NCBI GenBank assembly: GCA_019739335.1
Contig: CP073261.1
Coordinates: 806,001 to 870,000 of the forward strand
Length of the DNA stretch: 64,000 nt
From: Erythrobacter sp.
Lineage (GTDB): Bacteria; Pseudomonadota; Alphaproteobacteria; Sphingomonadales; Sphingomonadaceae
Direction: 5' to 3'
Position 1 is the stretch's first letter. Every line of letters begins with the position of its first letter. The translations under genes and the position numbers were made by a program. Under the pieces are notes generated by a model. It worked only from the letters and a program-made list of their open reading frames with translations. It did not search any database and was not told the origin of the DNA. Below are positions 3,938 through 22,121 of this stretch, piece by piece.

Positions 3938-4999
3938 ATGTTCAAACACTTCGGTGGGTCGCTGATCTTCACCGCTGTCATGCTCGCCTTGGGCGGATGG
4001 TACGGCTGGGTATCGACCGGAACGATCGGGGGGGTGCTCAGTATCCTGTGGATTTGCATTATCCTCTCGATCCTCGAAGTCTCGCTGTCGTTCGACAATG
4101 CGGCGGTAAACGCTTCGGTGCTCAAGGATATGGATCCGGTCTGGCAGGCACGCTTTCTAACCATCGGGATCATCATCGCCGTTTTCGGGATGCGTATCGT
4201 CTTCCCGCTACTCATCGTAATGATCGCCGCCAGCCTCGGCCCGATCGAGGCGGTAGATCTCGCACTCAGCAGGCCAGACGAGTACCAGCGCATCGTCAGC
4301 GATGCACATATCGGGCTGATGGGCTTTGGCGGCGCATTCCTCGGCATGGTCGGCCTCAAGTTCTTCTTCGACGCCGACAAGGAACACGACTGGATCAGCG
4401 TGATCGAGCGGCCGCTGGCCAAGGTGGCGAATATCGAAGCCGTGGCCATCGGCATCGTGCTGGCCGGCACCTGGGCAACCTCAGCTATGCTCGCCGATGA
4501 CGACGCGCTGACTTTCATCGTCGCGGCTATCGGAGGCTTGCTCACTTACATCGCTGTCGAGATCGTCAACCATGTGCTCGAACCGCCCACGCCTTCCACT
4601 GGTGATGTAGCCAAGGCAGGTTTCGGGGCCTTCCTCTATCTTGAAGTGCTCGACGCCAGCTTCTCGTTCGATGGCGTGATCGGTGCCTTCGCGCTGACCA
4701 ACAACCTGATCGTGATCGCGATCGGCCTTGGTATTGGCGCGATGTTCGTCCGCTCGATGACGATCTTTCTTGTCCGCAAGGGAACGATGTCCGAATACCG
4801 CTATCTCGAACATGGCGCATTCTACGCGATCATGGCGCTGGCGGTGATCATGTATGTGAACACCTTCTACCATATCCCCGAAGTGATTACCGGCCTTATC
4901 GGCGCGGTATTGATCGGACTCGCATTTTGGTCGTCGGTTCGCTGGAACCGCGCCAATCCCCACGGCGAATCGGACATCATCGCCGACATGAGAGCCTGA
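3938..4999 (+). CDS. DUF475 (TerC-like) integral membrane protein
   Basis: The 353-residue protein is almost entirely hydrophobic helices. It carries the paired acidic signatures of this TerC-related family: EVSLSFDNAAVNA near residues 47-59, and LEVLDASFSFDGVIGAFA in the second half. Such repeats suggest an internally duplicated transporter, and related TerC proteins have been linked to metal or tellurite handling. The substrate here is unknown. The ATG is preceded by GAAGGAAG at good spacing. The gene is monocistronic and convergent with the operon that follows. Confidence 0.85.
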   Translation: MFKHFGGSLIFTAVMLALGGWYGWVSTGTIGGVLSILWICIILSILEVSLSFDNAAVNASVLKDMDPVWQARFLTIGIIIAVFGMRIVFPLLIVMIAASLGPIEAVDLALSRPDEYQRIVSDAHIGLMGFGGAFLGMVGLKFFFDADKEHDWISVIERPLAKVANIEAVAIGIVLAGTWATSAMLADDDALTFIVAAIGGLLTYIAVEIVNHVLEPPTPSTGDVAKAGFGAFLYLEVLDASFSFDGVIGAFALTNNLIVIAIGLGIGAMFVRSMTIFLVRKGTMSEYRYLEHGAFYAIMALAVIMYVNTFYHIPEVITGLIGAVLIGLAFWSSVRWNRANPHGESDIIADMRA

Positions 5000-5073: not shown

Positions 5074-7068
5074 TCAAGCAAGATAAGACAGCCCAAGCCT
5101 CTGTTGGCGAGCCACCAGCAGGGCATAGCCCGCAGCAAGCAAGGCTTCGCCATCCTGTGCAATCGAAATCAGTTCTGCCAGGCGGGTCATACCATAATCG
5201 CCAAGCCGGGCCGCGTGAGCTGCGCGTTTCCCTTCGAGCAGAGAGGCCAGTTGCGGCCCTGCTTCGAGCCGGTCGAGCAAGTTCCGCCACGCATCGGCAA
5301 TCGCGCGCGAGGAGGCGCTCGGCTGGATGAATTGCAGGTTGCGCCCCGGATCGGGGCGCAGCCGTAGCAGCCAGCTACGCAGGTCGCGATCCTTGTTCCT
5401 TGCCCAGTGCTGCGGCGGCACTGTCAGGTCCGCCGGTTCGCCATCGCCGAGTAGCGACACCGGAGCCAGCTCCACAGACTCGCCCGCTAGAGTGGCCTTG
5501 GCCAGCACGGTCCCGCGCCAGCCCCTGCCGAGCGCCATCTGCAAGTTTTCAATGGCGGTGCTGCCGCGTACGTCGTGATCTAGCATGACTGCCAGCCAGC
5601 GGCCCTCGGCATCGCGCAGCGGCCAGATCAGGCGCTGTGCCAGTTCGTCGAAGCTGGGGCGGGCGGTGTCGGTGGGGTGGAGCAGTACCATCTGCGGCTG
5701 CCCGGTCGCCGCCAGCCCGAGCGCGAATCCTCCGGCGAGCGCGGCGCGCATGGCCTCCCAATCCGCGTGCCCATGCGCTGCGGATGGCAGCGCCGCCTTG
5801 TCGACCAGCCGCGCGCGGACATCTTGCCCCGCTGACAACCGCCCGTCAGCCGCAACTCCAGCGCCCGTCAGGGCAATCCTCGCGTGGGCCAATTCCGCTA
5901 GCGGCCCAGCCTGCCACACCGCCTGCTGGTAGAAAGCGTTTCGCGGATCGAACAGCGGCTCCTGCCCCGCGCCGCGTGCCAGCGAGATCGCGTGGAAGCG
6001 CCCGCTGCCTTCGTCGAGCAGATGCACCGTCACCCCTCGCGCTCCGCCTTTCGTGCGCCAGATCTCAGCGCCGCAGCCGACCAGTTCGACATCGCCCAGC
6101 GGCTGGTACTCGCGCCGCACCTGTCCGGCCAGGGTGGCGAAATGCGGGTCTGCCGGGTCGGCCTTTGCCACCGCGCGGCTCAGCGCATGGGCAGTCGCCA
6201 TCAGTTCGAGCATCAGCCCGGCATCGAAGGAAAACGATCGCTGGCGCCGCAGCCGCATCTGCGCGGCAATGGAGCGCAGCAGGCTGGCGAGGCGCGGCAG
6301 GGCATCGGCGCGCGAGGAGACCGACAGCGCGAACAGGCTCTCCTCCAGCGGCAGCGGGGCAAGATTGAAACCGAGCGCTGCGCAATCCACCAGTGCCCGT
6401 TGGACGCGGGCGAGGAACTGCGGATCGGGGGCACTGGTGGTCGGAGCCGCTGCCTGCTCCTCCGCGTCGGCACTTTCCAGCGACAGGCCAAAATGCCGCC
6501 GCGCCGCCAGCAGGGCTGCGGCATGATAGGCCTTCTTCTGCGCCTTGCTCGCGCCCGAAACGATCTCCGCCATGCCCTGCCCACGAAGGATCAGCACCGG
6601 CTCATCCAGCTCGTCGAAGCGCACTGCCACAGATGTGCCACCGGGTTCCACCTCACCCGCCGTCTCCAGCAATTCCAGCGCCGCGCGCCAGCCGGGGCGG
6701 CCGGTGAACTTGCGCGCCTCTTCCAGCGGGATTGCGGCGATAATCTCTAGCGGGTCGGCGACAGAAGCGATTTCACCTTCCACTTCCTCGACGGCAGACT
6801 CCCGCAACAGCAGCACCGCGCCGAGCAGGTGGCGGCAAACCCCCGCCGCCGAACAGTCGCAACGCCCTTTCGCCGGGCCAGCCGCGCCAATCTCCACTGC
6901 CTGCCCGTCCACCGCCAGCCGCGCATTCCCGCCTTCGCTCGCCTCAAGCACGACCTTGCCATCGGCAAGATCGCGCTGCGCCCGCCGCAGCAGGCCGGGA
7001 TTGGCGAGCGTTGCCAAAGCTTTATCGTCGAAGGCCTGCATCGCAGCAATGAGCGCCGGATCGATCAT
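5074..7068 (-). CDS. SWIM zinc-finger protein (YehQ-like)
   Basis: The 664-residue protein has a SWIM motif near its N-terminus (C70-x-C72, then C78-x-H80), a zinc-binding fold associated with nucleic-acid or protein contacts. The remainder is Ala/Leu-rich with no recognised domain. I chose the ATG at 7068 because it forms an ATGA overlap with the stop of the VWA gene; an upstream in-frame ATG at 7089 would add seven residues. It is the last gene of the DUF4132-MoxR-DUF5682-VWA-SWIM operon, matching the position of yehQ in E. coli. The role is unknown. Confidence 0.85.
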   Translation of the reverse strand: MIDPALIAAMQAFDDKALATLANPGLLRRAQRDLADGKVVLEASEGGNARLAVDGQAVEIGAAGPAKGRCDCSAAGVCRHLLGAVLLLRESAVEEVEGEIASVADPLEIIAAIPLEEARKFTGRPGWRAALELLETAGEVEPGGTSVAVRFDELDEPVLILRGQGMAEIVSGASKAQKKAYHAAALLAARRHFGLSLESADAEEQAAAPTTSAPDPQFLARVQRALVDCAALGFNLAPLPLEESLFALSVSSRADALPRLASLLRSIAAQMRLRRQRSFSFDAGLMLELMATAHALSRAVAKADPADPHFATLAGQVRREYQPLGDVELVGCGAEIWRTKGGARGVTVHLLDEGSGRFHAISLARGAGQEPLFDPRNAFYQQAVWQAGPLAELAHARIALTGAGVAADGRLSAGQDVRARLVDKAALPSAAHGHADWEAMRAALAGGFALGLAATGQPQMVLLHPTDTARPSFDELAQRLIWPLRDAEGRWLAVMLDHDVRGSTAIENLQMALGRGWRGTVLAKATLAGESVELAPVSLLGDGEPADLTVPPQHWARNKDRDLRSWLLRLRPDPGRNLQFIQPSASSRAIADAWRNLLDRLEAGPQLASLLEGKRAAHAARLGDYGMTRLAELISIAQDGEALLAAGYALLVARQQRLGLSYLA

Positions 7069-8213
7069 CCCATCGCCCGCCCTAGCCATTCGGCGAAGCG
7101 ATCCGGCGTCAGCGCCGCCACTTCCATCCCCACCCCGGCCAGCCGTTGCGCCGTCGCCCGATCGTAGACTGCCGCCCCATCATCGCTCAGCGCGGCAAGG
7201 CCGAGCAGCTTGACGCGGGCGGAGTTCATGCGGCGGACGCCGGCCAGCAATTGCGCCACGGATCCGCCTTCCATGAAATCGCTGAGCAGCACGAACACGG
7301 TCCGCGTCGGCTGGGTTATCAGCCCTTCGCAATAGCTTACCGCGCCGCCGATGTCGGTCCCGCCGCCAAGTTGCACCGACATCAGCACCGCCACCGGATC
7401 GTGCGCCTCGCTCGACAGGTCCACCACCGAGGTGTCGAACACCACCAGACGGACGTCAACCGGCGGCAGACCGGTCAATATCGCCGCCATAACCGCTGCA
7501 TAAATGGTTGAACCGAGCATCGAGCCCGACTGGTCGACGCACAGGATGATCGTCCACGGCAAGCGCCGCTCGCTGCGCCCGAAAAAGCGCAAGCGTTCGG
7601 CCACGATCCGCCCGTGTTCGGTATCGTAATGTTTGAGGTTCTCGCGGATCGTCCCGCGCCAGTCGAAATTGCGCATCGACTTGAGCTGGCTGCGGCGGAA
7701 GCGGTCGGTCTTGCCCGAAAGCGCCGCCATCACTTTCGGCTTCAGCCGTTGCATCGTCTCTTCGACGATCTTGCGGGCAATCTCGCGGATCTTGGCCTGC
7801 GCCGCTTCATCGGCAATCCCCTTGTAGGAGATCAGCGCCTTGAGCAGGTCCTGGTTGGGTTCGAGCTGGTCGAGCACCTGCGGATCGCGCAGCAGTTCGT
7901 TCATGCCGAGATTGTCGATGGCGTGGGCCTGAACAGTTTCCAGCACCGATTGTGGGAACAGCGCGCGCAGCTCGCCCAGCCAGCCGAGCGCGGTGAGCTG
8001 GCTGGGATCGAGCGAGCCGCCGCTGCCCTTGCCGCCGCCGCGCCGCATCCCGCGCTTTTCCATTTCACGGGCGTAGAGGTAATCGAGCGCGCGGTCGGCA
8101 CGGCCATCGCCGCGAGTCATCGGGGTCTGGCCCATCTGCCTGTCGGCGTATCGGCCTAGTGCCAAACGCCAGCGGCGGGCGCGGGCGGGATCGGGAGGCG
8201 GTGCCCCGCTCAT
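7065..8213 (-). CDS. VWA domain protein partnered with a MoxR ATPase (YehP-like)
   Basis: The 382-residue product has a basic, helical N-terminal half and a C-terminal von Willebrand factor A domain. The MIDAS metal site is intact: DQSGS at residues 227-231, a Thr in GGGTDIGG and an Asp in LLSDFMEGG. VWA proteins paired with MoxR ATPases commonly act as adaptors in chaperone-like assembly or metal-loading complexes. The ATG at 8213 overlaps the previous stop as ATGA. The same frame stays open to 8831, but that extension is antisense-like and lies inside the DUF5682 gene. Confidence 0.9.
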   Translation of the reverse strand: MSGAPPPDPARARRWRLALGRYADRQMGQTPMTRGDGRADRALDYLYAREMEKRGMRRGGGKGSGGSLDPSQLTALGWLGELRALFPQSVLETVQAHAIDNLGMNELLRDPQVLDQLEPNQDLLKALISYKGIADEAAQAKIREIARKIVEETMQRLKPKVMAALSGKTDRFRRSQLKSMRNFDWRGTIRENLKHYDTEHGRIVAERLRFFGRSERRLPWTIILCVDQSGSMLGSTIYAAVMAAILTGLPPVDVRLVVFDTSVVDLSSEAHDPVAVLMSVQLGGGTDIGGAVSYCEGLITQPTRTVFVLLSDFMEGGSVAQLLAGVRRMNSARVKLLGLAALSDDGAAVYDRATAQRLAGVGMEVAALTPDRFAEWLGRAMG

Positions 8214-10579
8214 GCCACGCCCTCCGCAATCAGCAAGTCCGCCATCGCCCGGTCGAGCGCGAGATTGGCGAGCACCTCGCTTTCCGAAACCGCCGCCACC
8301 TGTTGCAGCGCCAGCCCGGAAATGCCCAGCCGCCCGGCGACCATTTCCGCTAGCCGGTCCACATCGCGCGGATCGAGCGGCATCAGCGCCAGCCGCAGGT
8401 GCGGCAGCAGGGCGACGAACGCGTCCTCGTCGGCATCGCCCACCACCGCGTCGAGCTCGGCCACGATTCCGGGCAGGGTCCACAGCAGTTCGGGCGCGAC
8501 CGCGATGATCCCGCCGAGGAAGCCGAGCCGGTCCGCCGGATCGACATAGGCCCCGCCCAGTTCGCCGCGCAGCCGCTGCGCCAGCACAGCACTGTCCGCG
8601 CGCCCATCGAGCAGCGCGAAGGCGAGCACCGCCCCGGCGACGGGCGGCACCAGATCGGCAGTGCGCAGCCGCTCGAGCGCAGCGTCGAAATGCTCTGTAT
8701 CGAACGGAATCTCCGCCGAGCGAGCCAGGTCGATAATCCCGCGTAGTGAGGCTAGCGCGCGCAAGGCAGCTTGCGCCTGATCGGCGGGCAGTTGGGCCAG
8801 TTCGGGCAGCAGCATGGCCACCCGCCGCCACACCGTTTCGCGCAGCGAATCGATCGGCGCGGTGTCGGCAATGCCCAGCACCTCGTCCCCGCGCCGCAGC
8901 AGCACGACCTCGTCCAGAGCGGCGACGACCGAGCGCAGTTCGGCGTCCTCGATCACTTCAGCCTCGACCAGTTGCAGCACCGCGCCCGCGCTGTCGCCCA
9001 CCCCCGCGCGGCAGGCCGTAGCGAACAGGTCCAGCGCCGCTTCGGCGTTGCGGCCCAGCCCTTGCTCTGACAGCGCGGCGATCCGTTCGGCGATCACCGC
9101 CGCCACGGCTTCAGGCAGAGTGTCGGCCATGCCCGCCAGTTCGACCAACCGCGCCTCGACCATCGGCGACCAGCTCACCGACCAGACTTCGAACAGGCGA
9201 TCAAGCGCGACATCGTTGCGGAAATCGGGCCCGCCGGTGCGATGGCCGAAGCCTGCTTCGAGCAGTGCCAGCGCATGGCAGAAGCGGCTCGCCTCGCGGT
9301 GCGCGGGCTTGCGGTAGAGATCGAGCTGGCGGCTGCGCACGTCGCCATCGTCCACGGCGAAGCGCAGGCGGCGCGCTTCGCTGCGCACCGCTTCCACCAG
9401 CGGGGGAGAGCCGGTGCCGGGGGGCACATCGCCGATGGCATTGCCGGTCAGCCAGAGGTGCAGTTCGGCGAGCAGCGGAGTGCCGCTGCGGGTGATTTCT
9501 TCCTTGATAAAGGTAGATCGCACCGCATCGATAATATCATCACGCAAGGGCAGGCTGCGCCCGCGCAGGGATGCGAGCCGCTGCGCCTGTTCGACCGCGG
9601 CTAGGATGATCGGGAACGGCGGGGCCTTGCCCTCCTTGCGCAGGTGCGCGGCGAAGCCGGAGATCAGCGCAGTGGTCCATTCCTCCGCGCTGGCTTGCTG
9701 GTCAGGCACGGCGTGCCAGTCCCACCAGTGCTGGTAGAACCCCGGCAGCGGCAGTCCTGCCGAATAGCCCGCAAGCGCATCCAGTTGGCGGTTGCCATAC
9801 CGCACCAGATAGGCCGATGCTTCTTTCGCCGATGCCGCCATCGGCTTGCCCGCACCATCGGCAAACAGCGCCCCAGCATGGAACCCGCCGACAATCGCGA
9901 CAATCGGCCCGTCCACCTCGGCCCGCGCCTGCGCCACCAGCGCGCGCATCTGCGCCTCGCGTTCCAGCGTGCCGTCGGCTTCCATCACCCTCGCCGCCGT
10001 CGCCGCGCGGATGCAGGCGCAATATTGCCCGACATCGGCAAAGAAGGCCCGCCAGTCGGCCTCGGCAATGCGGGTTTCGAACAGCTGGTCCCATACCTCG
10101 TTGCCGTCGCGGCAGCCGAGTTCACGCGCCAGCCCGCGCACGTAATCGCCGCTGTCAAACGCCGCTTCGTCCCCCATCAGGGTGCGCGAGACTTCGCCCT
10201 TGCCGTCGAACAGCATGGCGCGGGCGTGGCTCGGCAGGTCGATGAAGCGGGTGACAATGCCCCGTTCCGCGCCGTGCCGCAGCGCAATGAATTCGGGAGA
10301 ATGGCTGGAGAAGGGGAAGTAGCTGGTCGCGCGCCGCCGCTTGCCCTCCTCTTCCTCCACCTGCCGCAGCGCCACCACCGCGACCGGCGCGCGGGTGCGC
10401 GAATCGCACAGTTGCGGGATCAGCGGATCGAAATCGCACGGCCCTTCGATCAGGATCGCCCCCGGCTGCACCTCGTCCAGCAGCCGCTTGAGCGCAGCCG
10501 CGCAAGCAGGGCTGTGATGCCGCACCGGCACCACGTAAAGATCGCGGGCCGGATCGTGGAGAGGGACCGGAGCCAGCAT
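8210..10579 (-). CDS. DUF5682 family protein (YehM-like)
   Basis: This 789-residue cytoplasmic protein begins with a segment typical of DUF5682: VVPVRHHSPACA followed by AILIEGPCDFDPLI. The rest is a long alpha-helical, Ala/Leu-rich region. The biochemical activity of the family is unknown. Its start is 3 bases past the MoxR stop and its end overlaps the VWA start, so translation is probably coupled. Length is close to that of E. coli YehM as I recall it. Both the order and the partner families support a joint complex, which is inference. Confidence 0.85.
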   Translation of the reverse strand: MLAPVPLHDPARDLYVVPVRHHSPACAAALKRLLDEVQPGAILIEGPCDFDPLIPQLCDSRTRAPVAVVALRQVEEEEGKRRRATSYFPFSSHSPEFIALRHGAERGIVTRFIDLPSHARAMLFDGKGEVSRTLMGDEAAFDSGDYVRGLARELGCRDGNEVWDQLFETRIAEADWRAFFADVGQYCACIRAATAARVMEADGTLEREAQMRALVAQARAEVDGPIVAIVGGFHAGALFADGAGKPMAASAKEASAYLVRYGNRQLDALAGYSAGLPLPGFYQHWWDWHAVPDQQASAEEWTTALISGFAAHLRKEGKAPPFPIILAAVEQAQRLASLRGRSLPLRDDIIDAVRSTFIKEEITRSGTPLLAELHLWLTGNAIGDVPPGTGSPPLVEAVRSEARRLRFAVDDGDVRSRQLDLYRKPAHREASRFCHALALLEAGFGHRTGGPDFRNDVALDRLFEVWSVSWSPMVEARLVELAGMADTLPEAVAAVIAERIAALSEQGLGRNAEAALDLFATACRAGVGDSAGAVLQLVEAEVIEDAELRSVVAALDEVVLLRRGDEVLGIADTAPIDSLRETVWRRVAMLLPELAQLPADQAQAALRALASLRGIIDLARSAEIPFDTEHFDAALERLRTADLVPPVAGAVLAFALLDGRADSAVLAQRLRGELGGAYVDPADRLGFLGGIIAVAPELLWTLPGIVAELDAVVGDADEDAFVALLPHLRLALMPLDPRDVDRLAEMVAGRLGISGLALQQVAAVSESEVLANLALDRAMADLLIAEGVA

Positions 10580-10582
10580 CGC

Positions 10583-11713
10583 TCAACCAAGCTTGAGCGC
10601 GCGCGCCGCCGTATAGAATTCCTTCCAGGTGGCCGACCGCGCCGCCCGCTCCCGCGCGATGTGTTCGACATAGGCGCGCAGCTTCTTGCCATCGTCGGGC
10701 GAGTCTTTCAGCACCACCCCCTGCAACTGCCGCGCGACATGCCCGCCGCCCAGCTTGCCATCGTCGAGATAGGCCGCTTCCAGCGCGGCGGCGTGGAGCA
10801 CGTTGACCGCCTCCGCAGTGGACATCACGGCGTCGGGCCGATTGAGGCTGGCGCCTTCGTCGGTGCGGCCCTTGCGCAGGTCCTGGAAGGTGCGCACCAG
10901 CAGTTCCGCCACGTCCTCGGCCCCGCGCACCTGCACCGCTTCGGGCTGCAGCCGCTCGGCGAGTTGCTTGAGCACCAGTTCCTTTTCGAACTTGGGATCG
11001 TCGATCGGGTGAACGGTTTCGAAATTGAACCGGCGTTTGAGCGCGCTCGACATTTCATGCACCCCGCGGTCGCGCAGGTTGGCGGTGGCGATGATGTTGA
11101 AGCCGGGCTTGGCATTCTCGATCCGGTCCGCGCCCAGTTCGGGCAGCGCCAGCGACTTTTCGGAGAGGATAGAGATCAGCGCATCCTGCACTTCGGGCGG
11201 GCAGCGCGTAATCTCCTCGAACCGGACAATCCGCCCGCTGCGCATCGCGTTGAGTACGGGTGAGGGCACCAGCGCCCGTTCGCTCGGCCCTTCGGACAGC
11301 AGCAGCGCGTAGTTCCAGCCGTAGCGCAGGTGATCCTCGTTGGTCCCCGCGCTGCCCTGCACCACCAGCGCGCTGGTGCCGCTGATCGCTGCGCCGAGCA
11401 GTTCGGAGAGCATCGACTTGGCCGTGCCGGGTTCGCCCACCAGCATCAGCCCCTGACGGCTCATCAGGCTGACGATGGCGCGGTCCACCAGAGGATCGTC
11501 GCCGTAGAACTTGCGGCTCACTCCCGCCTTGCTGTCGCCAAGGATGAACCGCCGCACCGCGCGCGGCGACAGGTGCCAGCCGGCGGGCTTGGGCGAGTTA
11601 TCGTCAGCCGCCAACCGCGCCATTTCATCGGCGTAGCGGACTTCCGCCGCCGCCCGCAGGTCCTGCCCGTTCTCGCTCACATCGCCGCTCACAGGCCGCC
11701 CTTCTTCTGCCAT
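10583..11713 (-). CDS. MoxR-type AAA+ ATPase (YehL subfamily)
   Basis: The 376-residue protein is an AAA+ ATPase. Walker A is GEPGTAKS at 93-100. The Walker B strand is RIVRFEEI at 161-168, with Glu where Asp is usual. A sensor-1-like ATAN lies at 209-212, followed by a KRRFN segment. MoxR ATPases remodel or activate client proteins together with VWA partners, and such a partner is encoded two genes downstream. The ATG at 11713 overlaps the DUF4132 end by 25 bases. A GTG at 11680 is an alternative start with a more plausible upstream purine run. Confidence 0.88.
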   Translation of the reverse strand: MAEEGRPVSGDVSENGQDLRAAAEVRYADEMARLAADDNSPKPAGWHLSPRAVRRFILGDSKAGVSRKFYGDDPLVDRAIVSLMSRQGLMLVGEPGTAKSMLSELLGAAISGTSALVVQGSAGTNEDHLRYGWNYALLLSEGPSERALVPSPVLNAMRSGRIVRFEEITRCPPEVQDALISILSEKSLALPELGADRIENAKPGFNIIATANLRDRGVHEMSSALKRRFNFETVHPIDDPKFEKELVLKQLAERLQPEAVQVRGAEDVAELLVRTFQDLRKGRTDEGASLNRPDAVMSTAEAVNVLHAAALEAAYLDDGKLGGGHVARQLQGVVLKDSPDDGKKLRAYVEHIARERAARSATWKEFYTAARALKLG

Positions 11714-14700
11714 TCCTTGTCGAACCCGGTGCCCTTGTCGGCAATGTCGTAAAGGTCGCGCCAGCTTTCGGCGAGCAGGACTTCGGGCACCGTGCCCAGA
11801 TCGACCGGATTGCCGCTGCGCCCGTTGGGCAACAATTTCCGGAAGCTGAGTGCGATCAGCGAGGCCGGAATGTTCTCTTCGGGCAGCGCAGATCCGGTGA
11901 ATTCGATTTCCGCCACCAGCCCCGCATCGCGCAAGGTGCGGGTGTAGGTCATGAACCAGCCGCCATCCTCCGCCGGGCCGCGCTGGTAGCCCAGCTTGGT
12001 GGCGATCCCGCGCAGGCGAAAGGTCTCGATCATCCAGCCTTCGCGATCGGTAATCGCGCGCTGGTTGCGCATTGTTTCGGTAATCGCGGGTAGCGTGCGG
12101 CCAAGCTGGTCGAATAATGGGGTGACGGCGTAATCAGCCAGATGGGCTTGCCAGGCGACAATGGCTTCGGTGGTGAGCAGGGTGCTATGGGCCAGCTTCA
12201 CGGTATCGAACCCGGCAGGATCGACATCGCCATCGCTGGCATCGGTAAAGGTGCCGTCCCCCAGCGGGCGGAAGCTCGCTTGCACCACGCCATCCGCATC
12301 CAGCCCCAGCCACACCAGCCGCGCCGCCAGTCGCCCGAGGATCGGGTGCCTGGCGACGTAGTTGAGCCAGTCCTCGCCCGACCATGTGCGCTCCATGCAC
12401 ATCGCCTCGCGCAGCCGTTCGGTCTGCGCGGTCACGACCTGCTTCACTTCCTTGCGGGCGTTGCTGAGCGCCTTCTTGGCGGCGTTGATCAGGGCGTTCT
12501 CGTCGTCGATCCGCGCGGCGGGGAGCGCCTTCACTTCCTTGCCCGAAGCGTTGAAGAGGGTGAGCTTGTCCTCCTCGTCCAGCCTGGCGGTGTACATGCG
12601 GTCCAGCCCGCAATCGAGTTCGAGCACTCCGTCCTCGTCGAGCCCGCCGGTGGGCACGGTGCGGTCTGCCAGTTCGCCCGGAGTCCAGCCGCGCTGTTCG
12701 GCCACGTCCTCGATCAGCTTGCGGGCGTGGGCCTGCACGCTCTTCTGCTTCAGGCGGTCGGCGGTGGAAAGCAGCACCTGCAAGGCCGCGGGCGTGCCGA
12801 TGCTGGCGAGCACATCGAGCAAGGCACGCGCCTGCGAGGTGCGGGCGCCGTGGTCCTTCAGGAAAGAGCGAATACGCGGCGCGGCGTCGGCGCCGTTCAC
12901 CCGGCTGGCGAGCGCGAGAATGCCTTTGGAATCGGTCGCGGTGCCGAGATAGACGCTCATTTTTGACCGTTTCAGCTGGGCAAACAGCGTGTCGTAATCC
13001 TGCGTGTAATACTGCGCGTGCTGCGGCCATTGCTTGGCCCAGGCCTTGTGCTGCGCCAATTGCGCATCAACATTGGCGAGCGCGTACCGGTTGCCCTCCT
13101 CCTCGGTCGGCATCCGGGTGTCCTCGGTGATCCAGCCGGTCAGGACCAGCCAGCCGAGTTTGTGCGCATCACCGGGAGCCAGCCGGTCGAGCCACAGATC
13201 GATCAGCGCATTGCCGCCGGGCTCCTTCAGCCGCGCGGCGAGCACCACCCAGTAGCGCGGCAGCATGGGATCGACCGGGTTGCCATCCGCCCAGGTCAGC
13301 GCGGGCAGGGCATCGAAGGGGAACCAGTCGAGCCCCTTGGGCGTGGCCTTCTTCAGCCCCGCCTCGGCCTCTTTCAGCATCGCCTGCTGATCGAAGAAAT
13401 CGCTGGTATCGTCCCCCAGCCGTTCGAGCGCGGTGATCATCGCCGCGCGGGCCTTGTCGCTCTTTTCTGCTTTCAACCGCTTGCGGATGGCGGGAATGTG
13501 CGACTTCGCTCCGCGCGCGACCAGCCACTGCGCGGCATTGGCGCGGACGGTCTGGTTGCCGTCTTCCAGTTGCAGGGCGATCGAATCCTCAATTCCTGCC
13601 GCGCCCCTGAGCAGATCGCGCGCCTTCTCGCGGGTCTGCCACGAGGTTTCGTTGGCGAGGATCATCAGCCGCGAACGATAGCGTTCAGGCACCTTGGGGA
13701 ACAGTTCGAGCACTTTCAGTCCACGATAGGCGTTGAATTGGCGGTGACCGCTCTGCGGAACCAGTCCCAGCGCCTCGTCAAGTTGCGGAAGATGTTCGAG
13801 GAAGATGGGCCAGCTATCCTGATCCCACCCCCAATGATCGCCGTGATAATGAGGGGCGCCGTAGAAGTCAGCGAAGAAGTCTTTCCCACCATTCTCCCGC
13901 CACAAATCATAGATTACCCGCAAGTCCGCTCCGCGAGTCACGCGGCGCTGAATGCCCCCGGCCACCGAGCCTGACCAACTGGTTAGCAAATGGCCGAACA
14001 AGTGAGCATGCATCCCCATCGCCATCCGCACCAGATGCCGCAGGTCGACCGAGGGATGATCGAAGAAGCGATCAATATTAGCGTGACGGACCCAATAGCC
14101 GAGCAGCCAATGGAAATTGTTCTGGTTGCTGAAGCCGACAATGTGATCCTTCTCGGCAAGGCTGCGCAGCTTGTCGATTGCGGCGGAAGTGAGCGGCTTG
14201 AAGCTGCGCGTCCAGTGGTTCTTGAAGTCCTTGTAGCGCGCCTGGTCCTCCAGCATCTTCGTATTGTAGGCCTCGATCACCGGAGGCAGCAACGCAAGGG
14301 CTTCGGGATCGATCTTCCCCGGCGGCGGCAGGTCGCCGCGCGGCGGGGCGGCGACCCATTCGCCGTCGAGCGCGATAAAGCCCGACTTGCCGTCCTGTTG
14401 CCCCGGACTGCGCGCTGCGGCCTGCGGAGCCGACGCCGCCACCGCTCCCGCCACCCGGTCCATCGCCGCCAGCACGGAGCCGCTCTTTTCGCTCTCCCGC
14501 AGTCGCGCGATCAGCGGTGCTGCGCGATCGCCCAAGGAACCCGCCATCGCTTCCACCAGCAGCGCCCTACGAGCGGGTGGATCGACGGCAAAGCGCGTTT
14601 CCAGCGCCGCTTCGAGTTCAGCGGGTTCGGCCCCGGTCAACGCCTGATTTGCCGCCTTGCGCGGTCCCTTGGCGCTACCCGTCGCCATGTCGAGCAGCAG

Positions 14701-15357
14701 CGGGAAATAGAGGCCGTGCAGCCCCATCTGCCCGATCGTCCCCGCCAGCTTGGCGCGCGGCTCCGCCCCCGCCTTGCGTGCAGCTGCCGTGACTTCCGCC
14801 GGATAGTCGTGCAGCCAGTCCTTCACCCCGGCGAAGCGATCGATGCTGGTGGTGGACTGGTAACTGGCGGCATCGCGCGAAAACAGCACGTCGATCACCA
14901 CCTCGTCACCCACGCCGCCCTCGCGCGCGAGATCGCGCAAGGTTTGCAGCGGCTGCCCCTTGCGATCGTTCGACAGCCACAGGGACACCACGTGCCGCAG
15001 CCATGTGGGCGAGGCCTTGGTGCCGAAATGGCCGTAATCCCAGGTAATCGGATCAAGCAGGGCAAGCACTTCGCCCAGCCGCTGCATCCGGTCCACACGC
15101 CATTGCGACAGGTCGCGGAACAGGCCTAGCTCGTCACGCTGTGGATAGGTGCGGCTGCGGTTCTGCCAATTGCGCTGGGTTGCTTGCACCGAGATATCGG
15201 ACAGCACCGAACTGCTGCTGCCGTCGGCCACATAGCTGGCAATCCGCCCAGCCGTCGCCGCACCGAGGGCCTTGGCAAAAAGCGGTGCAACGGGGGGTAG
15301 CGCACTCGTCCCGCCGCCTAAAACCTGCCCCAGACGGCTGAAAAACGATCCTACCAT
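11689..15357 (-). CDS. DUF4132 domain protein (YehI/MolR-like)
   Basis: The 1222-residue protein opens the operon. A helical repeat region resembling HEAT repeats lies near residues 590-640 (DGNQTVRANAAQWLVARG). The DUF4132 signature starts near residue 885: ELADRTVPTGGLDEDG, then LDCG and a GKEVKALP motif. The function is unknown; E. coli YehI (once called MolR) has a similar size. I chose the ATG at 15357 because GGAGGG lies 8-10 bases upstream. The open frame continues to 15870, but that part is the complement of the glycine riboswitch and gcvT start and is not coding. Confidence 0.85.
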   Translation of the reverse strand: MVGSFFSRLGQVLGGGTSALPPVAPLFAKALGAATAGRIASYVADGSSSSVLSDISVQATQRNWQNRSRTYPQRDELGLFRDLSQWRVDRMQRLGEVLALLDPITWDYGHFGTKASPTWLRHVVSLWLSNDRKGQPLQTLRDLAREGGVGDEVVIDVLFSRDAASYQSTTSIDRFAGVKDWLHDYPAEVTAAARKAGAEPRAKLAGTIGQMGLHGLYFPLLLDMATGSAKGPRKAANQALTGAEPAELEAALETRFAVDPPARRALLVEAMAGSLGDRAAPLIARLRESEKSGSVLAAMDRVAGAVAASAPQAAARSPGQQDGKSGFIALDGEWVAAPPRGDLPPPGKIDPEALALLPPVIEAYNTKMLEDQARYKDFKNHWTRSFKPLTSAAIDKLRSLAEKDHIVGFSNQNNFHWLLGYWVRHANIDRFFDHPSVDLRHLVRMAMGMHAHLFGHLLTSWSGSVAGGIQRRVTRGADLRVIYDLWRENGGKDFFADFYGAPHYHGDHWGWDQDSWPIFLEHLPQLDEALGLVPQSGHRQFNAYRGLKVLELFPKVPERYRSRLMILANETSWQTREKARDLLRGAAGIEDSIALQLEDGNQTVRANAAQWLVARGAKSHIPAIRKRLKAEKSDKARAAMITALERLGDDTSDFFDQQAMLKEAEAGLKKATPKGLDWFPFDALPALTWADGNPVDPMLPRYWVVLAARLKEPGGNALIDLWLDRLAPGDAHKLGWLVLTGWITEDTRMPTEEEGNRYALANVDAQLAQHKAWAKQWPQHAQYYTQDYDTLFAQLKRSKMSVYLGTATDSKGILALASRVNGADAAPRIRSFLKDHGARTSQARALLDVLASIGTPAALQVLLSTADRLKQKSVQAHARKLIEDVAEQRGWTPGELADRTVPTGGLDEDGVLELDCGLDRMYTARLDEEDKLTLFNASGKEVKALPAARIDDENALINAAKKALSNARKEVKQVVTAQTERLREAMCMERTWSGEDWLNYVARHPILGRLAARLVWLGLDADGVVQASFRPLGDGTFTDASDGDVDPAGFDTVKLAHSTLLTTEAIVAWQAHLADYAVTPLFDQLGRTLPAITETMRNQRAITDREGWMIETFRLRGIATKLGYQRGPAEDGGWFMTYTRTLRDAGLVAEIEFTGSALPEENIPASLIALSFRKLLPNGRSGNPVDLGTVPEVLLAESWRDLYDIADKGTGFDKEWQKKGGL

Positions 15358-15518
15358 GCCCCGACCCTCCGCTGTCCTGAAATCAAGCGGCAAAAGGTAA
15401 AGATCAAGTGGAATTGCGCCCCACGCAGCTTCCCCAGTAACAGTTGCAACAATGGCAATTGACCGCGTCACGCGATTGCCCCAAAGCCTCCCCGTCTGGT
15501 GGAAGCGCAAGCGACCGG

Positions 15519-15727
15519 CAGCCGCGCGGGAGAGCTTTCCCGGCCAAGTGCAGGCATGGAAAGCACCGAAGGAGCAACCGCCCCGGAAACTCTCAGGTAC
15601 AAGGGACCGCGCGACTGGAACGGACACTCTGGAAAGCGCGGGCGCGCGATGCGCCTGCCACCGAAGGAGTAAGGCGCGCTGGTCCAACGGCGCGCCGGAA
15701 TCTCTCAGGTTTCCCGACAGAGGGGGC
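15519..15727 (+). promoter_or_regulatory. Tandem glycine riboswitch
   Basis: Two glycine aptamers lie head to tail. The first runs from the CGCGGGAGAGC segment near 15523 to ACTCTCAGG near 15597 and holds CACCGAAGGAGCAA. The second runs from GGACACTCTGGAAAGC near 15622 to TCTCTCAGG and CGACAGAGG near 15723 and holds CACCGAAGGAGTAA. The short linker and the paired conserved cores are hallmarks of the tandem class. P1 of aptamer 2 can form from CTCTG (15627-15631) and CAGAG (15718-15722). The target is the glycine cleavage operon that begins with gcvT. Confidence 0.97.
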
Positions 15728-15778
15728 ATGGTGAAGGTACCCGAATTCCGGGTGCTGCCGTGCCGTGTCGGACCCTTG

Positions 15779-17450: not shown

Positions 17451-18812
17451 ATGCGCTACCTCCCCCTTACTGACACCGACCGCACCGCGATGCTTGCCGC
17501 CGTGGGCGCACCGACCATCGATGCGCTGTTCGCAGATGTCCCTGCCGAACATTACCTCACCGGCCCGGTCGAAGGCCTTCCGCTGCACGCCAGCGAGATG
17601 GCGGTGGAGCGGCACATGCGGGCGCTGTCCAAACAGAACCTCGCGGCGGCCGATGCGCCGTTCTTCATCGGCGCGGGGGCCTATCGCCACCACATTCCCG
17701 CCACGGTCGATCACCTGATCCAGCGCGGCGAATTCCTCACCGCCTACACGCCCTACCAGCCGGAAATTGCGCAGGGCACCCTGCAGATGCTGTTCGAATT
17801 CCAGTCGCAGGTGGCGCGGCTCTATGGCTGCGCGATTGCCAATGCCTCGATGTACGATGGCTCGACCGCCTGCTGGGAAGCGATCGTGATGGCCGCGCGG
17901 CAGACCCGGCGGGACCGGGTGCTGATCGACGGCGGCGTGCATCCGCATTACGTTTCGGTCGCGCAGACGATGGCCCATTTCACCCCCGGCCATGTCGACT
18001 ACACCCTGCCGAAGCTGGAAGCCGACGCGGGTGAGGACGCGCTGATCGCGCGGATCGACGGAGCAACCTCCTGCGTGGTGGTGCAGTACCCGGACATCAT
18101 GGGCCGCATCCCCGATCTGGCGCGGATTGCCGAAGCGACGCACGCTGCGGGCGCGCTGCTGATCGTGGTGAATACCGAGCCGGTGGCGCTCGGCGCGCTG
18201 GAGGCTCCGGGCCATCTGGGGGCGGACATCGTGGTCGGCGAAGGGCAAGCGATCGGCGTCGGGCTGCAATTCGGCGGGCCGTACCTCGGCCTGTTCGCGA
18301 TCCGCGATCCCAAGCTGGTGCGGCAGATGCCGGGGCGACTGTGCGGGGAAACCGTCGATGCCGACGGCAAGCGCGGCTTCGTGCTGACGCTCTCGACCCG
18401 CGAACAGCATATCCGCCGCGAAAAGGCGACGAGCAACATCTGCACCAATTCCGGCCTCTGCGCGCTGGCCTTCTCGATCCACATGACCCTGCTGGGCGAG
18501 AAGGGGCTGACCGCACTGGCGGCGGAGAACCACCGGCTCGCCTGCCTCGCCGCCGAGCGACTGGGCGCGGTGAAGGGATGCAGCGTGGTCAACGAAGCCT
18601 TCTTCAACGAATTCACCCTGCGCGTTCCGGTCGATGCACGGCAACTAGTGCGCGATCTGGCGGCCAAGGGCGTGCTGGCGGGCGTGGGCCTCGGCAAGCT
18701 GTTCCCCGATGGCGAGGGGCGCGAGAACGGCCTGCTCGTGACCGTCACCGAAACTGTCAGCGAAGCGGATATCCAGGCCTTCGTTTCTGCGCTTGAGGAG
18801 GTGCTGCCATGA
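17451..18812 (+). CDS. gcvPA: Glycine dehydrogenase (decarboxylating) subunit 1
   Basis: The 453-residue alpha subunit of the two-part P protein forms part of the PLP-dependent glycine decarboxylase. It is a fold-type I protein that lacks the PLP lysine, which lies in the partner subunit. Typical segments are MRYLPLTDTDR at the start, FIGAGAYRHHIPATVDHLI and YTPYQPEIAQGTLQ. AGGGGAGCAAGG precedes the ATG, and part of it is the 3' arm of the palindromic repeat. The stop overlaps the gcvPB start as ATGA. Confidence 0.97.
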   Translation: MRYLPLTDTDRTAMLAAVGAPTIDALFADVPAEHYLTGPVEGLPLHASEMAVERHMRALSKQNLAAADAPFFIGAGAYRHHIPATVDHLIQRGEFLTAYTPYQPEIAQGTLQMLFEFQSQVARLYGCAIANASMYDGSTACWEAIVMAARQTRRDRVLIDGGVHPHYVSVAQTMAHFTPGHVDYTLPKLEADAGEDALIARIDGATSCVVVQYPDIMGRIPDLARIAEATHAAGALLIVVNTEPVALGALEAPGHLGADIVVGEGQAIGVGLQFGGPYLGLFAIRDPKLVRQMPGRLCGETVDADGKRGFVLTLSTREQHIRREKATSNICTNSGLCALAFSIHMTLLGEKGLTALAAENHRLACLAAERLGAVKGCSVVNEAFFNEFTLRVPVDARQLVRDLAAKGVLAGVGLGKLFPDGEGRENGLLVTVTETVSEADIQAFVSALEEVLP

Positions 18813-20446
18813 ACAAGCCCGTCAACCCGAGCGGGTGGAAGCCCGGCGCTCCTATGGCTTCGGACGGCGCGCAGGACTATCCCACCGTCACCGGCAACAA
18901 GGCGCTGATGCTCGAAGAGCCGCTGATCTTCGAGATCGGCGGCAAAGATACATGCGGCGTCGACTTCACTCCTCCCCTCCCGCTTGCGGGAGGGGCCGGG
19001 GGTGGGCCTGAAATCGAGACGGTGGTCAGTCCCACCCCTGACCCCTCCCGCCAGCGGGAGGGGAAATTGGGCAAGTTTGCCCGCACCCAGCCGCTCGGCC
19101 TGCCCGGGCTGTCAGAGCCGGAAACGGTGCGCCACTACACCCGCCTCAGCCGGCAGAACTACGGGATCGATCTCGGCTTCTTCCCGCTCGGTTCCTGCAC
19201 GATGAAGCACAATCCGCGCCTGAATGAAAAGGTTGCGCGGATGCCCGGCTTTGCCGATGTCCATCCGTTGCAGCCGGTGGATACGGTGCAGGGCGCGCTG
19301 AAGGTGATCGACGAGCTGGCGCACTGGCTCATTACCCTCACCGGGATGAGCGCGGTGGCGATGAGCCCGAAGGCAGGCGCGCATGGCGAATTGTGCGGAA
19401 TCCTCTGCATTCGCGCGGCGCTCGAAGCGCGCGGCGATGCGCGTGAAGTGGTGCTGGTGCCCGAAAGCGCCCACGGAACCAATCCCGCCACCGCGGCCTT
19501 CGCCGGATACAAGGTCGAGAACATTCCCGCCGACGCGCAAGGCCGGGTCGATCTGGCGGCGCTCAAGGCGCGGCTGGGGCCGGACGTTGCAGGCGTGATG
19601 ATCACCAATCCCAACACCTGCGGACTGTTCGAACGCGACATGAAGGCGATTTCGGACGCGGTCCACGCGGCGGGCGGGCTGGTCTATTGCGACGGGGCGA
19701 ATTTCAACGCAATCATGGGCCGGGTGCGCCCCGGCGACCTTGGCATCGACGCGATGCACATCAACCTGCACAAGACCTTCTCCACCCCGCACGGCGGCGG
19801 CGGGCCGGGTTCAGGGCCGGTGGTGCTCTCCGAAGCGCTTGTGCCCTTCGCCCCGCTACCTTTCGTGATGCGCAATGCCGATGGCTCGCTGCGGATGGTC
19901 GAGGAAGAGAACGCGGGCGAAGATGCCGCGCAGAGCTTCGGGCGGATGACCGCGTTCCATGGGCAGATGGGCATGTTCACCCGCGCGCTGACCTATATCC
20001 TCAGCCACGGCGCGGATGGCTTGCGGCAGGCATCGGGCGATGCGGTGCTCAACGCCAATTACGTGCTGCGCCAATTGGAAGACGTGCTCCACGCGCCGTT
20101 CGGGGCCACCGGGCCGTGCATGCACGAAGCACTGTTCGGGGACGAGGGTTTTGCCGATGGCCTGACCACGCTCGATCTCGCCAAGGGGCTGATCGACGAG
20201 GGCTTCCACCCGATGACGATGTATTTCCCGTTGGTGGTCCACGGAGCGATGCTGATCGAGCCGACCGAGACCGAGAGCAAGGCCGCGCTCGACCATTTCA
20301 TCATGGCGATGCGCTCGCTGGCGGAGCGGGCGAAGGCGGGCGACCAGACCCTCAAGACCGCCCCCCATCACGCCCCGCGCGCCCGGCTGGACGAAGCACA
20401 CGCCGCGCGGCATCCCCGGCTGGCATGGAGCGAGGTGGTGAGCTAG
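18809..20446 (+). CDS. gcvPB: Glycine dehydrogenase (decarboxylating) subunit 2, with an inserted palindromic element
   Basis: The 545-residue beta subunit carries the PLP lysine (K322, in NLHKTFSTPHGGGGPGSG). It decarboxylates glycine with its GcvPA partner. Residues 56-85 are encoded exactly by a 90-bp palindromic element and form a Pro/Gly/Arg-rich stretch (PLPLAGGAGGGPEIE and onward) unlike the flanking sequence. The frame is kept. The insert falls in the N-terminal region, after LIFEIGGKDTCGVDF and before ARTQPLGLPGLSEPETVRHY, away from the active site. The protein is therefore probably still active. Confidence 0.95.
   Translation: MNKPVNPSGWKPGAPMASDGAQDYPTVTGNKALMLEEPLIFEIGGKDTCGVDFTPPLPLAGGAGGGPEIETVVSPTPDPSRQREGKLGKFARTQPLGLPGLSEPETVRHYTRLSRQNYGIDLGFFPLGSCTMKHNPRLNEKVARMPGFADVHPLQPVDTVQGALKVIDELAHWLITLTGMSAVAMSPKAGAHGELCGILCIRAALEARGDAREVVLVPESAHGTNPATAAFAGYKVENIPADAQGRVDLAALKARLGPDVAGVMITNPNTCGLFERDMKAISDAVHAAGGLVYCDGANFNAIMGRVRPGDLGIDAMHINLHKTFSTPHGGGGPGSGPVVLSEALVPFAPLPFVMRNADGSLRMVEEENAGEDAAQSFGRMTAFHGQMGMFTRALTYILSHGADGLRQASGDAVLNANYVLRQLEDVLHAPFGATGPCMHEALFGDEGFADGLTTLDLAKGLIDEGFHPMTMYFPLVVHGAMLIEPTETESKAALDHFIMAMRSLAERAKAGDQTLKTAPHHAPRARLDEAHAARHPRLAWSEVVS
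18974..19063 (+). repeat. Composite palindromic repeat inside gcvPB
   Basis: This is a second copy of the element found between gcvH and gcvPA. The terminal 22-bp palindromes are 18974-18995 and 19042-19063, with the same inner G-rich and C-rich arms (GGGGGTGGGC and CCCACCCCTG). It is 90 bp long, a multiple of three, begins on a codon boundary and contains no stop in the gcvPB frame. Confidence 0.9.
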
Positions 20447-20513
20447 CGTTCGGCTATCGTTCAGATGTGCAATTGCATAGATGAACGGAATTGATGTTCG
20501 ACAGGGGGACTCG

Positions 20514-22121
20514 ATGAAGAAGGCCGGATTTTTCACTGCTGTTGCACTGGGGGCGATGGTTATGCTGGCGCCCGTTGCAGCGCAGGATCTTGCCGTCGGG
20601 CCATCGGGCCTTGCCGATACCGACGCGAGCAAGCAGCGCAAGCCGCGCGATGGTGGTGGTGCGATCGTGCTGGGCGACGGCGTGGACGGCTCGCTCTCGC
20701 GCGGCACCAACACCTACGTCATGCAGGGTCGCGCGGGGCAAAGGGTGCGAATTTCGCTCTCCTCGCCTCGCTTTGATACTGTGTTGCGGATTTCCGGACC
20801 TAACGGCTTTTCCGCCGAGAACGACGATGCTCCCGGCGGGGCAACGCTCGACTCGATGCTCGAAGCCGTGCTTCCGGCGGACGGCTCCTACGAACTGGTG
20901 GTATCAGCCTTCAACGGCCAGGGGAGTGGCGAGTACCGCCTCGCCACGATGGATCCGGCCAATCCGGCCCCCGGCGGTGCCCGCCCGATTGCTTTCGGCG
21001 AAGCGGCAACGGGGATGCTCACCCCCAGCGACCCCACCTCCTTCACCGGACAATATGTCGACTACTACGCGTTTGCAGGGCGAGCCGGACAGCGAGTGAC
21101 CTTCGATCTCGGTTCGGAGGACATCGACACACTGCTCACCGTCTACCTGCCCGACGGACGGCAGGAAATGAACGACGATCGCAACGGCACGGCCAATACC
21201 GACAGCCTGCTCTCGATCACCCTGCCGACCGACGGCACCTATCACGTTGCCGCCAGCAGCTTCTCCCCCGGAGAAGCAGGCCGTTACGGGCTGACGGTGC
21301 GAGAGGCCGAGGCAGGCGTGCGCACCGTGAGACCATCCACGGGCAATTCGCGCGTCTTCGCCCTGACCGTGGGCGTCGCCGACTACGAACGGATCAGCCC
21401 GCTCGACCGCACCGACGAGGATGCCGAGCGCGTTTCCGCCGCACTGCGCAGTGCAGGCGTGCTCGCCCCCGAAAGCGTGACCTTGCTCAATTCCCGCGCC
21501 ACCCGCGCCAATTTCCAGGCCGCGCTGACCGACCTGACCAATGCGATGGGCGAGGAAGACTTGCTACTGATCTTCTATTCGGGCCACGGCGAGAAGGTGG
21601 AGAACATGACCACCGAGCACGATGGCAGTGCCGAAACGATGGAACTGTTCGACGCGCCGCTCTACGATTACGAACTGGCGGCGATGATGGAGAACATCGA
21701 TGCCCGCACGCTGCTGGTGATCGACGCCTGCTTTGCCGGCGGGTTCGACAACGTGATCGACCAGCGCGTGGACCGGATGGGCATTTTCAGCTCGGACGAG
21801 GATACGCTCAGCCTGGTCGCCACGCGGGAGAAAGCGGGCGGCCATATCAGCCACATCTTCCGGCAAGCGATCGAAGGCGGGGCAGACCTCGATGGCGACC
21901 GCGAAGTGACCGCGGGCGAGCTTTCCGAATTCATGCGCCGCCAGTTCTACCGCGCCGTGCTGGAAGCGCCGCTGGCCACCGATGCCGAGGATTTCCGCGA
22001 CATGCAGGTGCCCGGCTGGCAGCACATCGTGATCGATCGCGGCGGCGACGGGATGCCGCACCAGCAAGTCCTGATGAATCTGGCCCAGCCAAGCGGGGGC
22101 ACGCTGGCCCGCGCAAACTGA
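20514..22121 (+). CDS. Secreted caspase-like (metacaspase) protein with PPC-type domains and an EF-hand loop
   Basis: The 535-residue protein has a signal peptide that ends near AAQD. Two domains resembling bacterial pre-peptidase C-terminal (PPC) modules follow, at about residues 45-155 and 160-270, each with an AGQRV.....S...DT.L sequence. A caspase domain starts near RVFALTVGVADY. The catalytic dyad is present: H358 in YSGHGE and C406 in IDACFAGG. An EF-hand-type calcium loop spans D458-E469 (DLDGDREVTAGE). I chose the ATG at 20514 because of the GGGGGA upstream; a longer frame starts at 20481. Substrate and role are unknown. Confidence 0.85.
   Translation: MKKAGFFTAVALGAMVMLAPVAAQDLAVGPSGLADTDASKQRKPRDGGGAIVLGDGVDGSLSRGTNTYVMQGRAGQRVRISLSSPRFDTVLRISGPNGFSAENDDAPGGATLDSMLEAVLPADGSYELVVSAFNGQGSGEYRLATMDPANPAPGGARPIAFGEAATGMLTPSDPTSFTGQYVDYYAFAGRAGQRVTFDLGSEDIDTLLTVYLPDGRQEMNDDRNGTANTDSLLSITLPTDGTYHVAASSFSPGEAGRYGLTVREAEAGVRTVRPSTGNSRVFALTVGVADYERISPLDRTDEDAERVSAALRSAGVLAPESVTLLNSRATRANFQAALTDLTNAMGEEDLLLIFYSGHGEKVENMTTEHDGSAETMELFDAPLYDYELAAMMENIDARTLLVIDACFAGGFDNVIDQRVDRMGIFSSDEDTLSLVATREKAGGHISHIFRQAIEGGADLDGDREVTAGELSEFMRRQFYRAVLEAPLATDAEDFRDMQVPGWQHIVIDRGGDGMPHQQVLMNLAQPSGGTLARAN

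Follow-up and report, generated by a model that had tools for sequence, protein, structure and literature searches.

A five-gene MoxR/VWA/DUF5682 operon in Erythrobacter sp. related to the unexplained yeh genes of Escherichia coli

Organization of the operon

The window analyzed here is a stretch of 64,000 nucleotides from Erythrobacter sp. (assembly GCA_019739335.1, contig CP073261.1, positions 806,001 to 870,000), whose minus strand carries, from position 15357 to 5074, five genes encoding a DUF4132 protein, a MoxR AAA+ ATPase, a DUF5682 protein, a VWA protein, and a SWIM zinc-finger protein. All five reading frames are open and packed as tightly as an earlier reading of the bare sequence, hereafter the original prediction, had stated. 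The DUF4132 and MoxR genes overlap by 25 nucleotides, the MoxR and DUF5682 genes are separated by 3 nucleotides, a 4-nucleotide ATGA overlap at the DUF5682/VWA junction holds the VWA start codon, and the VWA and SWIM genes again overlap by 25 nucleotides.

The first gene (11689–15357, minus strand) encodes a YehI homologue of 1222 amino acids that is composed of HEAT-like repeats (HEAT_2, E 3e-7) and a C-terminal DUF4132 domain at residues 939–1124 (PF13569, 127.5 bits, E 7e-37) and has no WGR domain. An AlphaFold2 (AF2) model of its C-terminal 423 residues, with a predicted local distance difference test (pLDDT) value of 93, has no close fold in the PDB. An attempt to read a function from this fold was abandoned, and none is drawn from the model, since the structure matches are weak (YugN, probability 0.98, E 0.02) or spurious-looking (sulfotransferases). 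The MoxR protein (10583–11713, minus strand; 376 amino acids; AAA_5, 124.6 bits, E 4e-36) is assigned to the YehL subfamily and retains the conserved alignment columns of the Walker A motif (G93–S100), the Walker B motif (E166/E167), N212, and R227/R228. It is followed by the DUF5682 protein (8210–10579, minus strand; 789 amino acids; PF18934, 343.9 bits, E 3e-102), a homologue of YehM, and by a CoxE-type VWA protein (7065–8213, minus strand; 382 amino acids; VWA_CoxE, 175 bits, E 2e-51), a homologue of YehP. The metal ion-dependent adhesion site (MIDAS) of the latter is intact, with D227-x-S229-x-S231, T286, and D312 each conserved in at least 99% of 100 sequences. The last gene (5074–7089, minus strand) encodes a YehQ homologue of 671 amino acids, which has no Pfam match and is assigned by its CxC-x5-CxH motif (C77-x-C79-x5-C85-x-H87); the Cys and His residues of this motif, at residues 77–87, are invariant across 81 homologues.

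Correspondence with the E. coli yeh genes

Judged by sequence, the operon is the alphaproteobacterial version of the uncharacterized E. coli yehI-yehL-yehM-yehP-yehQ set. The gene order that the original prediction had given for E. coli is correct: yehI, yehK, yehL, yehM, yehP, and yehQ lie on one strand and, yehK aside, encode the matching families in the order found in the window, all five proteins of which match their E. coli counterparts. In BLASTP comparisons, identity amounts to 49% over 357 amino acids with YehL, 42% over 375 amino acids with YehP, 27% over 766 amino acids with YehM (1e-42), and 29% over 291 amino acids, a part of the protein, with YehI (6e-30). The match to YehQ is confined to the N-terminal ~105 amino acids (30%, 3e-7), and homology is supported by a wider SWIM family profile. 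The assignment of the window's MoxR protein, which is encoded beside DUF5682 and VWA, to the YehL subfamily is based on this pairwise identity and on the AAA_5 match. Two differences exist between the loci. In E. coli, yehK and a gap separate yehI from yehL, whereas the window operon is compact; and upstream of its set E. coli has a further WGR/DUF4132 gene, the broken molR (yehF/yehH), whereas the window has a single DUF4132 gene. In the K-12 strain, yehH, a part of molR (L001:6450–10270), is annotated as a pseudogene. The yehL–yehQ genes are matched in 5,321 of 5,426 E. coli genomes (98%) and thus appear core-like.

Co-inheritance of the five families

The original prediction had called for a survey of gene neighborhoods, in which rare co-occurrence of the five families would have spoken against a common system. 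A scan with the MoxR protein, carried out with one genome per species, yielded over 500 relatives; of their loci, the 80 best were read. Far from being rarely together, the five families are all present in 62 of the 62 loci with full flanks, and every incomplete locus found in this way is cut by a contig end. The loci span alpha-, beta-, and gammaproteobacteria, actinobacteria, planctomycetes, cyanobacteria, and verrucomicrobia, so that the predicted conservation over a large distance holds for at least five phyla. Gene order is mostly I-L-M-P-Q; a few loci show rotated orders (P-Q-I-L-M, L-M-P-Q-I), and the I gene is also found inverted. Flanking genes vary, and where they recur they do so among close relatives only. 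The five families are co-inherited: all five are found in every uncut locus across phyla while the flanks differ. Among 249 genomes of Pseudomonadota, DUF5682 occurs in 11 and DUF4132 in 9, and both occur in 7, where ~0.4 would be expected; together with the 62 complete loci, this goes far beyond chance. Pairwise distance correlations among the five families range from 0.86 to 0.95, values that partly reflect species relatedness. No sixth conserved partner could be identified in the surveyed loci besides additional DUF4132 copies. In one locus, a further DUF4132 gene (L124:6676–10347, plus strand) lies apart from the five-gene set, next to genes for a type I restriction HsdR protein and a YgjP-like metallopeptidase.

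The alphaproteobacterial setting is borne out by the nearest relative locus, which stems from an Erythrobacter metagenome-assembled genome (L003) and carries the same five genes at 60–88% identity; none of the other window neighbors that were tested is present in the 20 kb read around it. TerC and gcvT, the genes bordering the operon in the window, are not adjacent in the fetched relatives, and hence no empty-site comparison is available. Within the genus, DUF5682 is present in 2 of 40 genomes. A DUF5682-like sequence was also encountered in a phage record (MT835988.1, 11100–12758), a 14-kb unannotated "Bacteriophage sp." entry from feces that is possibly a mislabeled bacterial contig.

An invariant core and an exchangeable scaffold

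A second survey followed DUF5682 through 31 loci from three phylum samples. Of these, 30 have a MoxR gene adjacent and 29 a VWA gene nearby; the remaining loci are truncated by the end of a contig or stretch. Two apparent departures from this arrangement were discarded: a MoxR-less variant with a seeming 430-amino-acid DUF5682 extension (L118/L120) is an overlapping-frame artefact, MoxR being present, and a 1,064-amino-acid "MoxR" reading frame in L151 is over-extended. In five genomes (L151, L152, L157, L164, and L170), DUF5682 and VWA_CoxE form one open reading frame, and Pfam confirms both domains in the single frame for L151 and L164. Since MoxR and VWA accompany DUF5682 in all uncut loci, and fusions between members occur, the invariant core consists of MoxR, DUF5682, and VWA; SWIM often accompanies this core, and the large scaffold can be exchanged. 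In three loci (L153, L154, and L162), from two actinobacterial genomes and one planctomycete, a divergent DUF5682 is found in the order VWA-MoxR-DUF5682.

The exchange of the scaffold takes several forms. In the four genomes of Pseudomonadota that have DUF5682 without DUF4132 (G028, G082, G111, and G207), a gene for the HEAT-like DUF5691 adjoins MoxR-DUF5682-VWA, and in most of them a SWIM or SWIM-like gene follows. All 15 genomes of Actinomycetota in which DUF5691 scores above its cut-off carry it no more than ~3.5 kb from DUF5682. Elsewhere the place is taken by one or two WGR-DUF4132 proteins or by an unnamed protein of 1,584–1,962 amino acids. The latter, found in L151, L152, L164, and L170 beside MoxR and the DUF5682-VWA fusion, has no Pfam match in the two examples scanned and possibly serves as scaffold in a third variant. 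The original prediction of a five-part set thus stands as regards the co-occurrence of the families; DUF4132, however, cannot count as essential, given that DUF5691 or other large proteins stand in for it elsewhere. SWIM and HEAT are themselves joined in one 946-amino-acid protein encoded next to MoxR-DUF5682-VWA (L165:11959–14799, plus strand). PADLOC gives a weak match (PDC-S62) for this protein.

The N-terminal domain of DUF5682

DUF4132, DUF5682, and the SWIM protein had been described as having no known activity, a statement that can be sharpened for DUF5682, the N-terminal domain of which resembles the Tiki/TraB/ChaN superfamily. The AF2 model of the protein (pLDDT 89, predicted template modeling score, pTM, 0.85) consists of an N-terminal alpha/beta domain followed by an alpha-solenoid. 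H22, E45, R191, R207-E208-M211, and G231/H234 of the N-terminal domain are invariant or near-invariant: E45 is found in 120 of 120 sequences, H234 in 118, and R207, E208, and M211 in at least 118. Because these 120 sequences were picked with an RHH motif, the conservation of H22 is not independent in this set; H22 is also invariant in the DUF5682 alignment A3. In active members of the Tiki/TraB/EreA/ChaN superfamily, a His-Glu pair operates together with a second His (PMC6254334). DUF5682 displays its motifs in the order of the superfamily, with a His after strand 1 (H22), a Glu in strand 2 (E45), an RExxM helix, and a late-strand GxxH (H234), and the strand/helix order of the AF2 model would fit its parallel beta-sheet core.

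Profile and structure comparisons point in the same direction. In a loose Pfam scan of 46 DUF5682 members, ChaN comes first among other families (4 members, best E 0.024) and TraB is among the next most frequent (3 members, 0.022). The program hhalign aligned RExxM...GGFH of DUF5682 with RDxxMA...GNxH of ChaN at a P of 2.8e-4, a value lying between those of two known superfamily pairs (8.5e-5 and 8.6e-4), and with the 120 sequences ChaN ranked first of 373 templates (P 1.6e-4 versus 5.3e-3 for the next). With the AF2 model, the top viral match in Foldseek is a TraB family protein (probability 1.00). Four tests thus agree, each weakly, and the DUF5682 N-terminal domain probably belongs to the Tiki/TraB/ChaN superfamily.

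Several observations weigh against this assignment or against an enzymatic role. The hhalign probability for the Tiki link is only 41–51%, direct hhalign comparison with the TraB and EreA sets returned nothing, and the E value of the Foldseek TraB match is just 0.024. No PDB match was detected by sequence, and no Tiki-fold entry is present among the 50 PDB fold matches listed for the full-length model, where helical repeats dominate. DUF5682 also differs from the superfamily in the long alpha-solenoid behind the domain and in having R20 at the position of the first Glu of the 2His/2Glu set (motif, PMC6254334), which suggests that DUF5682 could be a non-catalytic binder. This first Glu is present in RRSP and ChaN and absent in the TraB set A7, and is hence not common to the whole superfamily. 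Catalysis by DUF5682 is accordingly rated lower than its predicted superfamily membership.

A candidate ATP-driven machine

The operon, the co-inheritance of its genes, the DUF5682-VWA fusions, and the one SWIM-HEAT fusion suggest joint action of the five products. From these data we infer a complex, a Tiki-like catalytic role, and a targeting role. To the proposal that the operon encodes one ATP-driven MoxR/VWA-DUF5682 remodeling machine with HEAT/SWIM targeting, we give roughly an even chance. YehL-type MoxR subunits would form a hexameric motor, for which the CoxE-type VWA protein would serve as adaptor, gripping its partner via the MIDAS site. DUF5682, a probable hydrolase or metal/heme-binding relative carrying an alpha-solenoid, would be the obligate third core part and would be activated, loaded, or gated by the motor. 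Because DUF5682 always stands beside the MoxR/VWA pair and is sometimes fused to VWA, an action of the motor on DUF5682, or through it, is the simplest reading. The HEAT scaffold (DUF4132 here, DUF5691 or other large proteins elsewhere) and the SWIM protein would together direct the core to its substrate as a targeting module. HEAT and SWIM proteins are the fastest evolving parts, with a mean identity of 33% and 27%, respectively, versus 62% for MoxR, and are best explained as a target-recognizing module. Precedents exist in NorQ/NorD and in a general peptide-capture model of MoxR/VWA systems (PMC13036017, PMC9976466, PMC7159879). In NorQ/NorD, the pore of the motor receives a finger of the VWA protein, and the linker to the target is put under strain by the motor (PMC13036017); a MoxR/VWA system requires its MIDAS residues for the target (PMC9976466). 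The window's MoxR and VWA proteins retain the motor and MIDAS residues. A point against the proposed machine is that neighboring genes in the surveyed loci suggest no substrate. A narrower version, a widespread bacterial machine in which DUF5682 would be a Tiki-superfamily hydrolase built into the complex and under the control of the MoxR/VWA motor, with interchangeable HEAT/SWIM scaffolds aiming it at different targets, is a tentative possibility; we know of no description of an AAA+-gated Tiki-type enzyme.

It is unlikely, though in keeping with the CoxE type of the VWA protein, that the operon encodes a chaperone that matures a metalloenzyme whose gene lies elsewhere, with DUF5682 acting as a ChaN-like metal/heme carrier or adaptor and not as an enzyme. 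The best profile match of the DUF5682 N-terminal domain is indeed ChaN, a heme-binding family, and an Arg replaces the first active-site Glu. The window set resembles NorQ/NorD, CoxD/CoxE, and RavA/ViaA in pairing a VWA adaptor with a MoxR motor; its VWA protein belongs to the CoxE family and has retained the MIDAS. In contrast to these systems, the pair in the window is tied to DUF5682 and SWIM/HEAT proteins. Known pairs usually lie beside the gene for their client, whereas no metalloenzyme client gene is adjacent in the window and none recurs next to the operon, and a permanent DUF5682-VWA fusion resembles a machine part more than a cargo carrier.

A role in the DNA-damage response, in which a remodeler of nucleoprotein or damage-associated complexes would be recruited to DNA by WGR-DUF4132 and SWIM proteins, appears quite unlikely. 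This view draws on the E. coli block, which starts with the LexA-regulated molR/yehF (regulon list, PMC11039860) and has a LexA-like site (CTGGATAAAATTACAG) ending ~10 bp upstream of yehF. It is also in line with the fusion of WGR to DUF4132 in several loci and with the response of DUF4132 and WGR genes to DdrO in Deinococcus (PMC8533742). However, no LexA-type box is present upstream of the window operon or in any of 89 upstream regions, only the E. coli yehF site being apparent, and SOS control was therefore rejected as a general trait. Moreover, the window's DUF4132 protein has no WGR domain, and proteins, too, are bound by SWIM domains.

MoxR-vWA ternary conflict systems, described in 2020 (PMC7159879; bpMoxR, PF20030), share with the window set the layout of a motor, a VWA protein, and a third component. 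The assumption that the operon represents a further kind of such conflict or defense system, with DUF5682 as its effector, would also fit the swappable large component and the patchy distribution within the genus (2 of 40 genomes, with differing flanks), and is nevertheless very unlikely. VMAP, iSTAND, and beta-propeller domains are absent from the five proteins, the window's MoxR reaches 22.9 bits with PF20030, below the 27-bit cut-off, and yehL–yehQ behave as a core gene set in E. coli (5,321 of 5,426 genomes). The five proteins have no PADLOC match other than DpdC for MoxR (E 0.008). Flanking genes are mostly ordinary, with no defense family in more than 2 of 97 neighbors, a count that has no random-gene baseline. 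Membership in defense islands was likewise rejected, no recurring system being found by PADLOC in the five proteins and these neighbors, and DUF5682 occurs in one phage record only. A single WGR_XIII match among the 97 neighbors is strong.

That the five genes are co-transcribed and co-inherited without forming a common machine is extremely improbable, for all five are kept over five phyla in differing contexts and members are fused to one another.

Relation to earlier work

YehL is one of seven named MoxR subfamilies (PMC3893208), and the motor is therefore not new; in this respect the original description of the set as undescribed does not hold. The window's MoxR is 49% identical to YehL along its whole length and has the canonical Walker A, Walker B, and arginine finger. 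The papers found on the YehL subfamily, in turn, contain no published function and no mention of a DUF5682 partner. In a literature search that missed most subscription papers, nothing was found on DUF5682, nothing joining DUF4132 or DUF5682 with MoxR, and just three papers that name two or more of the yeh genes, none of which deals with their function. The operon is thus orthologous to a system that is known yet unexplained and has here become better defined. What the present analysis adds is the obligate core of MoxR, DUF5682, and VWA, the exchange of the scaffold, the gene fusions, and the Tiki-like signature. The yehL–yehQ genes are nearly universal in E. coli and yet unexplained, and they include a member of a MoxR subfamily that has no known job. 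An obligate, sometimes fused motor partner with a predicted Tiki-like active site offers specific residues to mutate, and the replacement of DUF4132 by DUF5691 and others points to a single core machine served by several targeting modules. The DUF4132, DUF5682, DUF5691, and SWIM families are thereby joined into one question that is testable in K-12, a suitable strain because yehL–yehQ are present in 98% of E. coli genomes.

Neighboring genes in the window

The 5′ end of the operon borders a divergent intergenic region (15358–15778), on the other side of which lie a glycine riboswitch and gcvT. The riboswitch aptamer (RF00504, 55.9 bits; 15517–15619, plus strand), with a second aptamer-like stretch right behind it, stands 5′ of gcvT (to 16960) and two gcvP genes (17451–20446), an ordinary arrangement. 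Immediately after the glycine cleavage genes follows a gene for a caspase-like Peptidase_C14 protein with a PPC domain (20481–22121, plus strand). Just 3′ of the operon, and convergent with it, lies the gene for a TerC/DUF475 membrane protein (3938–4999, plus strand), which shows 59–65% identity in the rest of the genus.

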